From: Gallionella sp.
GTDB lineage: Bacteria; Pseudomonadota; Gammaproteobacteria; Burkholderiales; Gallionellaceae
Assembly: GCA_028689145.1 (NCBI GenBank)
Contig: JAQTWT010000011.1
Location: forward strand, 1-64,000
Reading direction: 5' to 3'
Length of the DNA: 64,000 nt
Shown here: positions 53,036-59,356 of the stretch, in pieces
How positions within the stretch are numbered: the stretch's first letter is position 1
How the letters are laid out: every line of letters begins with the position of its first letter
Notes under the pieces: model-generated
Told to the model about the DNA's origin: nothing
The model's input: the letters and a program-made list of their open reading frames with translations, nothing else
Databases searched by the model: none
Position numbers and translations under genes: made by a program

Positions 53036-54577
53036 CTATTCCCCGGTACGGTTCAAACGCGGATCGAACGCATCGCGCACCGCGTCGGCGAACAGGTTCG
53101 CCGCCAACACCAGCGCCAGCATGAAACTGAACGCCGCCGCCAGCGCCCACCACACCATCGGCTCGCGTCCCATTTCCATACGCGCCGCGTTGATCATGGT
53201 ACCGAAGCTGATGGTGGAAGGATCGACGCCCACGCCGACATAGGACAGCACCGCCTCGGCCAGCACTAATCCGCTGAAGTCCATCACCAGCGCGATCAAA
53301 ATAATATGCATCACGTTCGGCACGATGTGGCGGGTGAGGATGCGGAACGACGACACGCCGAACGCCTGCGCCGCCTGGATGTATTCCTGCTCGCGCAGCT
53401 TGAGTGTCTCGCCGCGCAGCAGTCGGCACAGCCCTGTCCAACTGGTCATACCGAGGATCAGGCACAGAAATACCAGTCGCAGGTCGGCGCGCGACGCGGC
53501 GGTATCGAACCACTCGGGGTGGGTGTCGATGGTGACCTGCATCATCAGCACCGCCGCCGCGATCAGCAGCACGCTAGGGATCGAACTTAACACGGTATAG
53601 ACATACTGGATCACATCGTCCACCCAGCCGCGCAGATAGCCCGCCGCGATGCCGAGCAGCAACGCCAGCGGCAATGTCACCAGCGTGGTCACCGTGCCGA
53701 TGATCAGCCCGGTGCGGATGCTTTTCAGCGACAGGTACAGCACGTCCTGCCCGACCTTGTCGGTGCCGAGGATGTGATAGGCGGTAGCAAGATTGATGGT
53801 GATGCCGATCAGGGTGAAGATGATCAGAGTGGCGATAAGCATGGGGCGTAGCGGCAAACCCAGCCCCCTCTCCCGCAGGCGGGAGAGGGTTGGGGTGAGG
53901 GATGTTGGGCGAACTTTGCTCTCGAAAATGTCCTGCTTCGATTGAACACCCTCTCCCTCAATCCCTCTGATGGAACTACTAGCCATTCGACTAGGCTGGG
54001 GAACTACTCCAGCCAAGTCGCTGGTTATCCCGCTTGCGGGAGAGGGAAGCAAAAGCCAGGCACCGCAAAATGCAATCAGCAATCCCACTGCAAACCCCGC
54101 CAGCGCACCCACCAAAGCCCTCTTCACCACATCCCCGTCGCGCTGCGCCATATCCGCCAGATGCACGCCTCCGAATTTCAAGCGCGGATAGACGCGCAGC
54201 ACCCTGCCCTGCGCGTCACTGAAGCTTTCCTTGGCATACAGCGTCAGCGCCAGCGGCGCGGAATAGGTCTTTTCGGTCTGGGTGCGCAACGGCTCGACCA
54301 GTTTATCGAACACGCTCAGCACTTCCGGTGAATACACGGTTGCGCCGCCGTTGCTTTCCGGCAGGGCGGCGCGGTAATGCAGCGTATCCAGCAACCCGAC
54401 CAGCAGGAACAGCGACAGCACCAGCAGCGACACCATCGCCGTCGCACTGCGCGCCACGCGCCGCCACGGCAGCAGCAGATGCTCGCGCTGCCTGATGTAC
54501 CATGCACCGGCGAGGCACGCCGCCAGCAGCAGGAATACCAGCGCGTCGCTCCACAGGATCACCGGCATGAAGTTCAT
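53036..54577 (-). CDS. ABC transporter permease, OppC/DppC type, with repeat-derived insertion
   Basis: The C-terminal half is a clear binding-protein-dependent permease: five or six membrane segments and the EAA loop EQEYIQAAQAFGVSSFRILT, then DAVRDAFDPRLNR at the end. The N-terminal part has two extra membrane segments and a soluble region (YSPEVLSVFDKLVEPLRTQT) that is longer than in E. coli OppC. Between N- and C-terminal parts, about 63 residues (PSPASGITSD to RERGLGLP) are encoded by a dispersed repeat in frame. The ORF-track start lies in another repeat; ATG 54577 with GGAGG upstream is preferred. The partner permease is upstream; no ATPase or binding-protein gene is adjacent. Confidence 0.88.
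   Translation of the reverse strand: MNFMPVILWSDALVFLLLAACLAGAWYIRQREHLLLPWRRVARSATAMVSLLVLSLFLLVGLLDTLHYRAALPESNGGATVYSPEVLSVFDKLVEPLRTQTEKTYSAPLALTLYAKESFSDAQGRVLRVYPRLKFGGVHLADMAQRDGDVVKRALVGALAGFAVGLLIAFCGAWLLLPSPASGITSDLAGVVPQPSRMASSSIRGIEGEGVQSKQDIFESKVRPTSLTPTLSRLRERGLGLPLRPMLIATLIIFTLIGITINLATAYHILGTDKVGQDVLYLSLKSIRTGLIIGTVTTLVTLPLALLLGIAAGYLRGWVDDVIQYVYTVLSSIPSVLLIAAAVLMMQVTIDTHPEWFDTAASRADLRLVFLCLILGMTSWTGLCRLLRGETLKLREQEYIQAAQAFGVSSFRILTRHIVPNVMHIILIALVMDFSGLVLAEAVLSYVGVGVDPSTISFGTMINAARMEMGREPMVWWALAAAFSFMLALVLAANLFADAVRDAFDPRLNRTGE
53862..54048. repeat. In-frame repeat insertion within the OppC-like gene
   Basis: The segment contains CCCTCTCCCGC-AG-GCGGGAGAGGG (53866-53889), a second GGCTGG...CCAGCC hairpin, and CTTGCGGGAGAGGG at the other end. 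These are hallmarks of dispersed CCCTCTCCC-type elements. Its length of about 187-189 bp keeps the frame and no stop occurs. Confidence 0.75.
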
Positions 54578-54586
54578 GGAATCGAT

Positions 54587-54697
54587 GGCCTCCATCCCGT
54601 TCGTGGTGAGCCTGTCGAACCATGCACGGGGTGACAACACCGCCCTTCGACAAGGCTCTCCTGAGCAATGTCGAAGGGCTCAGGGCTAACGGTGTTT
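54587..54697. repeat. TTCGACAGGCTCA-type composite repeat between the two permease genes
   Basis: CGTTCGTGGTGAGCCTGTCG and GCCCTTCGACAAGGCTCTCC, then GAGCAATGTCGAAGGGCTCA, form an element that is nearly the same as, and inverted relative to, the one inside lnt at 63753-63838. It supplies the spurious N-terminal extension of the OppC-like ORF. Confidence 0.82.
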
Positions 54698-56106: not shown

Positions 56107-56979
56107 ATGAACGAACTTTCCGCAGACCTGAATAAAAAACTTGGCGAAGCCGTGGAACGAATGCCGGCTTTTCCGAAGAGCGTGCAAAAAGTCCTCGAGC
56201 TAACACGCGATCTGAACTGTTCGCCCAAGGTGCTGGTACAAGTCATCGAGAACGATCCGGTGATGACGATGAAGATCCTGCGGGTGTTGAACTCGGCTTA
56301 CTACAGCCTGCCCAGCAAGATCACTTCGATCAACCATTCGGTGGTGTTTCTCGGCTTGAATACGGTCAAGAACATTGCGCTGAGTATCGCCGCAATCGGC
56401 ATCCTGCCCAAGCAGAACGCCGCCGATTTTGATGTTAACCAGTATCTGCTGCATTCCCTGACAACCGCCGCCATTGCCAAGCATCTGTGCGGCAAGGTGG
56501 GCGGTGCCGATCCGATGGATTGTTACGTTGCGGGTTTGCTGCACGATTTCGGCAAGGTGGTTTTTGCCCAGTTCATGCCGGAACAATTCAAAATATCGCT
56601 CGAAAAATGCCAAGAAGGCGAGATGTCGCTGTTTACCGCGGAACAGGACGCGATTGGAACGGACCATACCGTGGTCGGTTCGATGCTGGCCGAAAAATGG
56701 CAGTTCCCCCAGCCGTTGATCGACAGCATCCGCAACCATCACTCTGAAAAAGCCGGCGAAACGGCAATGGGTGCGTGTGTCTATACCGCCAATCAGATCA
56801 GCAAGAAATTGGAATTCGGCTTCGCCGGGGATGCGCGTCTGGAGAGCTTGCCTCCCGCCGTTGCCAAACACTTCGGTGTCAATATCAACCTGGACACTTT
56901 GATTTCTTCAATCGGCGAAGCCGAACTGTCGAAGATTCTCGAGCAGGCCAGACAATTCTCGCAAATGGACGGATCATGA
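56107..56979 (+). CDS. HDOD-domain signalling protein
   Basis: The 290-residue protein is a single HDOD domain (LPAFPKSVQKVLELTRD-like MPAFPKSVQKVLELTRDLNC, ILRVLNSAYYSLPSKITSIN, GLLHDFGKVVFAQF, DSIRNHHSEKA). HDOD proteins look like HD hydrolases and usually act as protein-interaction regulators in signalling or motility. Start of a three-gene operon with an MBL-fold hydrolase and a cyclase; it overlaps the next gene by 4 bp. Confidence 0.93.
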   Translation: MNELSADLNKKLGEAVERMPAFPKSVQKVLELTRDLNCSPKVLVQVIENDPVMTMKILRVLNSAYYSLPSKITSINHSVVFLGLNTVKNIALSIAAIGILPKQNAADFDVNQYLLHSLTTAAIAKHLCGKVGGADPMDCYVAGLLHDFGKVVFAQFMPEQFKISLEKCQEGEMSLFTAEQDAIGTDHTVVGSMLAEKWQFPQPLIDSIRNHHSEKAGETAMGACVYTANQISKKLEFGFAGDARLESLPPAVAKHFGVNINLDTLISSIGEAELSKILEQARQFSQMDGS

Positions 56980-57863
56980 AAGTAAAATTCTGGGGTGTAC
57001 GCGGTTCAATTCCCTCGCCTCGTGCCGGCACGGTACGCTACGGTGGCAATACCACCTGTATCGAAATCCGCACCGACAACAACGAGCTAATCATCATTGA
57101 CGGCGGAACCGGAATATTCCCGTTGTCGCAAACTCTACTGAAAGAGTTGCCGGTCACCGCCAATGTATTCATCAGTCACAGCCACTGGGATCACATCCAC
57201 GGCTTACCTTTCTTCATTCCCAACTTCATCCCGGGCAACAAGATGATCTTGCACGGCGCGATCGACCCGGTTTCCGGGCGCGGTGTCGAACAAGTCATGG
57301 ATGTACAGCTGCAATACAGCTACTTCCCGGTGCGCGAGGCCGAGATGAAAGCCAGTATCGAATATGTTTCGCTCTCCCCCGGCCAGACTGTTCAGGCCGG
57401 TTCGGCCACGGTAAAGGCAACGCTGCTGAACCATCCTGTGGTCAATTTCGGTTACCGGGTGGAATGCAACGGCAAGTCGGTGTTCTTTACCGGCGACCAC
57501 GAACCGTATTCAAATATCTACTCGCCGGAAGACGAAAGTTATGAGGAATACCGCGGGCTGATCGCGGCGCAGGAAAAGATGGTCTTCGACGCGATGCAGG
57601 GCGTGGATGTGCTGATCGCCGATTCCTCATACACCATCGAGGAATATCCGGCCAAAAAAGGCTGGGGCCACGGCACATTCGATTCCTGCATGAGCATGGC
57701 CGATGCGGTCGGCGCAAAGATTCTTTACTGCACCCACCACGAACCGACTCGCGACGATGACGTACTGGAACGCGAATTCGCCAAGGCGCTGGCAAGACAT
57801 CCACGCAGCGAAGGAATGGCCGATTTCCGGCTGGCACGCGAGGGCATCGAAATCGAATTTTAA
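56976..57863 (+). CDS. Metallo-beta-lactamase-fold hydrolase, possible cyclic-nucleotide phosphodiesterase
   Basis: The correct start is the ATG at 56976 that overlaps the HDOD stop, giving MKVKFWGVRGSIPSPRAGTV and 295 residues. The metal-binding set is present: SHSHWDHIHG (HxHxDH), a later His in LLNHPVVNFGY, FTGDHEPYS and CTHHEP. Related proteins are annotated as class II cAMP phosphodiesterase-like. Placement before a class III cyclase makes a cyclic-nucleotide substrate attractive, but this is inference. Confidence 0.85.
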   Translation: MKVKFWGVRGSIPSPRAGTVRYGGNTTCIEIRTDNNELIIIDGGTGIFPLSQTLLKELPVTANVFISHSHWDHIHGLPFFIPNFIPGNKMILHGAIDPVSGRGVEQVMDVQLQYSYFPVREAEMKASIEYVSLSPGQTVQAGSATVKATLLNHPVVNFGYRVECNGKSVFFTGDHEPYSNIYSPEDESYEEYRGLIAAQEKMVFDAMQGVDVLIADSSYTIEEYPAKKGWGHGTFDSCMSMADAVGAKILYCTHHEPTRDDDVLEREFAKALARHPRSEGMADFRLAREGIEIEF

Positions 57864-57917: not shown

Positions 57918-59288
57918 ATGAGTTCCACCTTTAATAGTTCCAAGATCAATCCCGCAAATGCTGTTGCGGAACTGGCGGCCGAGCGCGATGCCCATGCGGG
58001 AACACGCGCCAGATTAAAGCTGCTCGAACACACGGTATTGCAATTCGTCCCGCGCGACTTGATCTCTTTTTTGGGCAAGGCTAGTCTGCTCGACGTAGAG
58101 CTCGGCGACCAGGTTGAAAAAACCATGTCGGTGGTATTTACCGACATACGCGATTTCACCACGTTGTCGGAAAGCATGACACCGCAGCAAACCTTCAACA
58201 TGATCAACTCCTACCTGTCGGTGATGAACCCGGTTATCAGCACGCATCAGGGGATCATCGACAAGTACATGGGCGACGCGATCATGGCGCTGTTCCCCAC
58301 CTCGGCCGATGACGCGCTTGCCGCGGCCTTGTCGATGCTGGCACGTCTCGACGAATACAATAATGGCCGTTCACGGGCCGCTTATCCGCCGATACGGATC
58401 GGGATTGGTGTCAATACCGGGTTATTGATGCTCGGCGTGATCGGCGGCGGCAACCGGATGGAAGGCACGGTGATCAGCCATGCGGTTAATCTGGCATCGC
58501 GTCTGGAAACCCTGACCAAGACCTACGGCGTACCTTTGCTGATCAGCGAACATACCCTTTACAGTCTTTCCGATTCGGACCGGTTCTCGGTACGCTACCT
58601 CGGCAGGTCAAAAGTGGCCGAAAACACCCCGGCAGAATCGGTCTATGAAGTGTTCAACCATGACCCGCACCCGGTAAGGGATATGAAGACCAGATCGCTG
58701 AAGAAATTCGAGGAAGCGATTGCCTATTATCATATCCGCGCGGCGAAAAAAGCGCTGCCGATGCTGGAAGAGATCGTGCAGGAAAACCCCGGCGACAAAC
58801 CCGCAAAAGTTTATCTGAAACGCTGCATCGATTACATCAAGACCGGTGTCTACATCGGCACCGAAGAGCTGGCGGATGAAATAGCCTGGCGCGCGGAATA
58901 TGAAACCGGCATCGAAGAGATTGATCGCCAGCTCAGCGAACTGTTGGCTCTTATCCGGCAATTGCACGAAGCCGTGACCGTCACCAGCAACATCGACGAT
59001 ATATTGTCAACCATGGATATTCTGGAAAAGTGTATTCAGGAACATTTTGACTTTGAAAACGAATTAATGACAAAACATTACTACCCGTTTTCTTCCGATC
59101 ACATTGCCCAGCACAATTCCTACAAAAACTACTTCCATAAACTCAGGTCCGAAATTGAGGCCAACACAGAGAACTCGCTTTATCTCGGTTTCCGCATTAA
59201 CTTGTCCCTTTCAAACTGGCTGCTGAACCATTTGTCACGCGATGATCGCCACCTTGGCCGCTTCCTGAATGAACGCGGGGGCATTTGA
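57918..59288 (+). CDS. Class III adenylate/guanylate cyclase fused to a bacteriohemerythrin-like domain
   Basis: The ATG at 57918 has GGAG at good spacing and is preferred to 57906. In ORF numbering (460 aa from 57906), residues 70-250 form a class III cyclase: VVFTDIRDFT with metal Asp80, DKYMGDAIMALF with Asp124 and Lys120, and AVNLASRLE with Asn195 and Arg199. The usual base-recognising Asp before VNLA is His192. After a helical linker, residues 328-455 are hemerythrin-like: H380-x3-E384, H399-x3-H403 and H442-x4-D447 are kept, but the first iron ligand His (in the IDRQH pattern) is Leu343. Hemerythrin domains sense O2 or redox state through a di-iron site. The protein may couple such a signal to cyclic-nucleotide synthesis. 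A terminator follows. Confidence 0.88.
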   Translation: MSSTFNSSKINPANAVAELAAERDAHAGTRARLKLLEHTVLQFVPRDLISFLGKASLLDVELGDQVEKTMSVVFTDIRDFTTLSESMTPQQTFNMINSYLSVMNPVISTHQGIIDKYMGDAIMALFPTSADDALAAALSMLARLDEYNNGRSRAAYPPIRIGIGVNTGLLMLGVIGGGNRMEGTVISHAVNLASRLETLTKTYGVPLLISEHTLYSLSDSDRFSVRYLGRSKVAENTPAESVYEVFNHDPHPVRDMKTRSLKKFEEAIAYYHIRAAKKALPMLEEIVQENPGDKPAKVYLKRCIDYIKTGVYIGTEELADEIAWRAEYETGIEEIDRQLSELLALIRQLHEAVTVTSNIDDILSTMDILEKCIQEHFDFENELMTKHYYPFSSDHIAQHNSYKNYFHKLRSEIEANTENSLYLGFRINLSLSNWLLNHLSRDDRHLGRFLNERGGI

Positions 59289-59322
59289 TACTTACCGGGC
59301 TGGCAGGGAGTGACATGCACAA

Positions 59323-59356
59323 CTAAAAAACCAGCCGAAGCTGGTTTTTTAGTTTT
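59323..59356 (+). terminator. Terminator of the HDOD-MBL-cyclase operon
   Basis: CTAAAAAACCAGC-CGAA-GCTGGTTTTTTAG is a perfect stem with a CGAA loop followed by TTTT, 35 bp after the cyclase stop. It is nearly symmetrical and may act in both directions. Confidence 0.92.

Follow-up and report, generated by a model that had tools for sequence, protein, structure and literature searches.

Fusions of a bacterial hemerythrin domain to a second-messenger enzyme are known from Bhr-DGC of Vibrio cholerae and Bhr-HD-GYP of Ferrovum (PMC9388753), both with c-di-GMP as output. The iron ligands of hemerythrin-domain sensors have been described as completely conserved, with the exception of the P1B-5-ATPase (PMC9388753). 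In the diiron site, Fe1 is held by three histidines of helices C and D and Fe2 by two histidines of helices A and B (PMC2556348), and O2 binds to Fe2 (PMC9388753). Loss of iron-ligand histidines as such is known, with 58 of 327 bacterial sequences altered in the survey of Bailly et al. (2008); 45 of the 71 alterations were found in helix C, on the Fe1 side, and most in single-domain proteins (PMC2556348). The closest enzymes to the one described here, CyaB of P. aeruginosa and CyaC of Spirulina, have the same cyclase fold but are not hemerythrin fusions. No described fusion of a class III cyclase with a hemerythrin domain was found in the open-access literature; an earlier mention is possible.

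Such a fusion is encoded on the forward strand of the window, a stretch of 64,000 nucleotides from Gallionella sp. Like Bhr-DGC and Bhr-HD-GYP it joins a hemerythrin domain to a second-messenger enzyme, but differs from them in having a class III cyclase as its enzyme, in carrying the sensor at the C-terminus and in lacking an Fe2 ligand, so that the complete conservation of iron ligands seen in the Bhr-DGC type does not extend to it. The initial annotation had read cyclase and hemerythrin in one frame, and this is borne out by a single open reading frame (57906/57918-59288), Pfam and NCBIfam matches and an AF2 model of the whole protein (pLDDT 83.6, pTM 0.81). Judged from the sequence, the ATG at 57918 is favoured as start, with GGAG a few bases upstream and an MSS start common to relatives. 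The gene (57918-59288) then codes for 456 aa; residue numbers given earlier for a 460-aa frame are lowered by 4, and the former Leu343 and His192 become Leu339 and His188. At the N-terminus the secondary structure of the AF2 model has a helix (residues 12-41, 57951-58040) which resembles a signalling helix and may act as one, and between the two main domains lies a helical, TPR-like linker (residues 251-318, 58668-58871; AF2 helices, with a weak TPR_19 match below cut-off). Transmembrane segments were not predicted for this protein or the other members of its clade. A sub-group of the fusions (L025-L027, L029, L070, L246 and their kin) has predicted N-terminal transmembrane segments and mostly Ser or Cys at position 376, and in the fusion gene of the relative L032 an in-frame TGA stands between linker and hemerythrin domain at the place of a conserved Trp.

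For comparison, fusions were collected from 101 relatives, from the family of the window (158 genomes), its order (399 genomes) and named genomes (Ferrigenium, Gallionella, Sideroxydans, Sterolibacterium, Rhodocyclales, Thiomargarita and Parabeggiatoa), which gave a set of 94 non-identical cyclase-hemerythrin fusions, mostly from Gallionellaceae, the family to which Ferrigenium also belongs. A class III cyclase partner had been called unusual at the outset, which is fair against the accessible literature but less so within the family, where 75 of the 158 genomes carry the fusion.

The cyclase catalytic domain (residues 68-233, 58119-58616; PF00211, 64.5 bits) superposes in its model on CyaB (3r5g, Z 22.6), and superposition on CyaB, CyaC and OaPAC gave Z values of 21-24. 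The metal-binding Asp76 (58143-58145) and Asp120 (58275-58277) and the transition-state residues Asn191 and Arg195 (58488-58502) are each present in all 94 fusions, as expected for a class III adenylyl cyclase and in agreement with the first reading of these residues as intact. Equally invariant (94/94) is the pair Lys116 (58263-58265), for adenine recognition, and Thr184 (58467-58469), the second base-recognition position, which is of class IIIb type and aligns with the Thr of CyaB. It thus corresponds to the adenine-type combination of Lys with Asp or Thr, and the same Lys/Thr pair is found in CyaB, with 31% identity over 181 residues. A guanylyl cyclase, for which the first specificity residue is Glu (PMC4215837), was rejected from the Lys at position 116 in 94/94 fusions, and cAMP is the predicted product. 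The initial annotation had also proposed an altered base-recognition residue, His188 (58479-58481). This is contradicted by the invariant Lys116/Thr184 pair and by the alignment of the family with CyaB and Cya2: as His188 aligns with an Arg in the active CyaB and an Ala in the guanylyl cyclase Cya2, and Thr184 with the Thr of CyaB, His188 is specific to one clade and lies outside the base-recognition positions. Among the fusions, 76 have Asp at position 188, 17 have His and one has Arg, and the 17 His members and the Arg member form one clade in the tree.

The hemerythrin-fold domain (residues 322-451, 58881-59270) was detected with TIGR02481 (79.3 bits; cut-off 51.75), scored just under the cut-off of PF01814 and reached 80.7 bits against the curated cut-off of 84 for the NCBIfam bacteriohemerythrin model NF033749. 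The model of linker and hemerythrin domain (pLDDT 88.3) has the four-helix hemerythrin fold, with DcrH-Hr, a chemoreceptor domain of Desulfovibrio vulgaris, as closest solved structure (2avk; Z 19.0, rmsd 2.1 over 133 residues, 24% identity). From the seven-ligand set H-HxxxE-HxxxH-HxxxxD, the last three motifs are retained, as had been noticed before: H376-x3-E380, H395-x3-H399 and H438-x4-D443. They comprise the helix-B Fe2 ligand His376 (59043-59045), kept here and lost in 56 of the 94 relatives, the bridging carboxylates Glu380 (59055-59057; 93/94) and Asp443 (59244-59246; 93/94, one Glu), and the Fe1 ligands His395 and His399 of helix C (59100-59114; 93/94 and 94/94) and His438 of helix D (59229-59231; 93/94, one gap). 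The first His is replaced by Leu339 (CTC, 58932-58934), whose counterpart in the alignment with DcrH-Hr is the helix-A His of IDTQH. As the helix-A His is an Fe2 ligand and O2 binds to Fe2, the ligand lost here belongs to the O2-binding iron.

The loss of the first ligand His, already suspected from the single sequence, was confirmed by alignment of homologues: all of the four species L001, L009, L010 and L185, which form a supported clade in the tree, carry Leu339, while His is found in L011, the sister closest to them, and in each of the 13 others of the wider clade. The codon is CTC in the Leu members and CAC in L011. A sequencing error or decay was rejected because CTC is common to four species and the hemerythrin domain is under purifying selection within the Leu clade (dN/dS 0.07-0.15). 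Substitute ligands were also considered. The sisters have H, Y, R or Q at the place of His350, both His387 and His407 also occur outside the clade, and the other three Leu members have Arg where this protein has Cys372; all four were rejected. The family alignment held no His, Asp, Glu or Cys fixed solely in the Leu clade, so that no compensating ligand was found there, nor did the sequence alignment of the clade reveal a nearby His that fills the ligand place, an outcome that would have spoken against the initial annotation.

Within the family, at least one Fe2 histidine is lost in 60 of the 94 fusions (His376 in 56, His339 in 10 and both in 6), mostly by way of helix B, and in the 456-aa protein by way of helix A. 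The Fe1 ligands and both bridging carboxylates are retained in 93-94 of the 94. In the 60 fusions with Fe2 loss, E380, H395, H399, D443 and H445 were found in 60/60 and H438 in 59/60, with one gap, compared with a median column conservation of 0.5. As controls, 67 hemerythrin domains encoded in these genomes or in related ones were analysed, of which only 3 lacked an Fe2 His (Fisher 7e-16 against the fusions, relatedness ignored); for altered Fe1 His the direction was reversed, with 2/94 fusions, one of them a gap, against 9/67 controls (Fisher 0.008, relatedness ignored). Changes between intact and lost Fe2 His amount to at least six by parsimony on the tree and to seven on a cyclase-only tree. 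At the level of sequence, the fusions thus form a conserved, selected family of class III cyclase-hemerythrin proteins with asymmetric loss of Fe2 histidines. This pattern is opposite to that of the Bailly set, as the losses fall on helices A and B and occur in a signalling fusion. That the hemerythrin domain might be a drifting structural or dimerising module without metal sensing is decidedly improbable: it would fit the lost ligand and the higher dN of this domain within the Leu clade (0.08-0.16, vs ~0.02 for the cyclase), but the dN/dS values given above and the invariance, one gap apart, of Fe1 ligands and bridging carboxylates in members with Fe2 loss argue against it. Separately from the fusions, a recurring Fe1-side variant with His395 replaced by Gln (HHEQHHD) was observed in the hemerythrin domains of L045 and L294-L299, most of them in long multi-domain frames. 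Small hemerythrin paralogues of the same genome as the window (L050-L053) have Tyr at the place of His376 and, where helix D could be read, Ser or Ala for Asp443.

Further residues distinguish the fusions from the controls. The helix-D pair Arg444-His445 (59247-59252; R 87/94, H 91/94) is fusion-specific, as position 445 is mostly K, D or R in the control domains and Lys in DcrH, which has His at the position of Leu339. Arg426, Arg444, His445 and Arg448 are conserved in the fusions and different in the controls, and by helix periodicity the three arginines lie on one face of helix D. These four residues may form an interface, whether to the linker, to the cyclase or to a partner chain. His445 as a substitute ligand was rejected, because it is equally frequent in members with all seven ligands and is thus not a response to ligand loss. 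One helical turn before position 376, His372 is present in 39 of the 56 fusions without His376 and in 3 of the 34 intact ones; the raw association is strong but not independent on the tree, and His372 as a swapped ligand was therefore not accepted, although from the alignment a migration of the ligand to His372 is possible in these members.

From the ligand pattern, we give about an even chance to a metal-dependent adenylyl-cyclase sensor working on the Fe1 half-site, its Fe2 being absent or loosely bound. In this reading the protein would be soluble, would presumably form a homodimer and would convert ATP to cAMP as a class III adenylyl cyclase under control of a C-terminal hemerythrin-fold metal sensor, in which one metal, probably iron, would occupy the Fe1 position. 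A change at this site, whether in its oxidation state, in its metal occupancy or in a small ligand, be it O2, NO or peroxide, would alter the linker and cyclase dimer and with them the level of cAMP, the strip of Arg426, Arg444, His445 and Arg448 on helix D being the likely signal-carrying contact. With Fe2 absent or weakly bound, classic reversible O2 binding would be unlikely. The modified site proposed at first, with five ligands or a single iron, is compatible with all findings and is supported by the loss of Fe2 His across the family with the Fe1 set retained; only the accompanying claim on base recognition did not stand. Three observations count against the half-site: this protein retains His376 and both carboxylates and could thus still house two irons, with one coordination position vacant; 84/94 fusions keep His339, which suggests that the Fe2 side is often still functional; and His372 makes ligand swapping possible in members without His376. 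Unlikely, but to be taken seriously, is a diiron sensor minus one ligand, with Fe2 on His376, Glu380, Asp443 and solvent and an open position that speeds the reaction with O2 or peroxide. It agrees with the six of seven ligands present and with the characterised Bhr enzymes, which switch by redox state (PMC9388753), but the missing compensation in the Leu clade speaks against it, and a general need for Fe2 is hard to fit to related lineages that lost the other Fe2 His and to the six members without both. The latter also argue against a sensor of metal level, an improbable alternative by analogy to the iron sensing proposed for the plant hemerythrin protein BRUTUS, in which a weakened second site would fill only at high Fe(II) so that cAMP reports iron; in its favour are the occurrence of the fusions mainly in a family containing Fe(II) oxidisers and the fact that iron is labile in BTS/BTSL domains when these are reduced (PMC12022348).

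If the Fe1 half-site reading is right, this would be a natural family of hemerythrin-fold sensors that dispenses with the O2-binding iron but preserves the remainder of its site, as well as a hemerythrin that controls cAMP rather than c-di-GMP or chemotaxis. The natural series of full site, helix-B loss, helix-A loss and loss of both lends itself to a comparison of which half of the hemerythrin site carries the signal. It would also indicate that microaerophilic Fe(II) oxidisers, of whose iron and oxygen sensing little is known, use cAMP as a signal. More tentatively, and with less than an even chance, the Gallionellaceae fusions may have exchanged the diiron site that binds O2 for a mononuclear one of three His and carboxylate, with Fe1 only, independently through either Fe2 His, and may use it to control cAMP in bacteria that live at Fe(II)/O2 gradients.

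Directly upstream of the fusion gene, and separated from it by 54 bases, lies a gene for an MBL-fold hydrolase (56976-57863, forward strand; PF12706), which is overlapped by 4 bases by an HDOD-domain gene (56107-56979, forward strand; PF08668, 197.5 bits). The order HDOD, MBL, cyclase-hemerythrin recurs in L009, L010 and L185, in the sister L011 and in the distant L028 from another family, with 37% (HDOD) and 61% (MBL) identity between L028 and the window. The MBL-fold gene is therefore probably in one operon with the fusion gene, and the three genes possibly form a cAMP-related operon. A cAMP-degrading role of the MBL partner is a guess only, because its match to the cyclic-nucleotide phosphodiesterase model was far below cut-off. 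An anti-phage cyclase of Pycsar type is extremely improbable: PADLOC finds the cyclase with its PycC models (1.3e-21), but this match spans cyclase homology only, a sensor domain is present, and next to the HDOD, MBL-fold and MiaB neighbours no adjoining Pycsar effector was found. In the whole genome, 12 hemerythrin-domain, 10 class III cyclase and 16 cNMP-binding-domain matches were counted, and the last of these could serve as readers of cAMP. A terminator-like hairpin follows the fusion gene (59321-59354, forward strand), in a hairpin scan whose count was not above that of shuffled sequences. Further upstream, on the reverse strand (53881-53899), a repeat-like motif CTCACCCCAACCCTCTCCC was observed in frame within an ABC-permease ORF (53036-54640), where it is read as SLTPTLSRLRERG; none is expected by chance.
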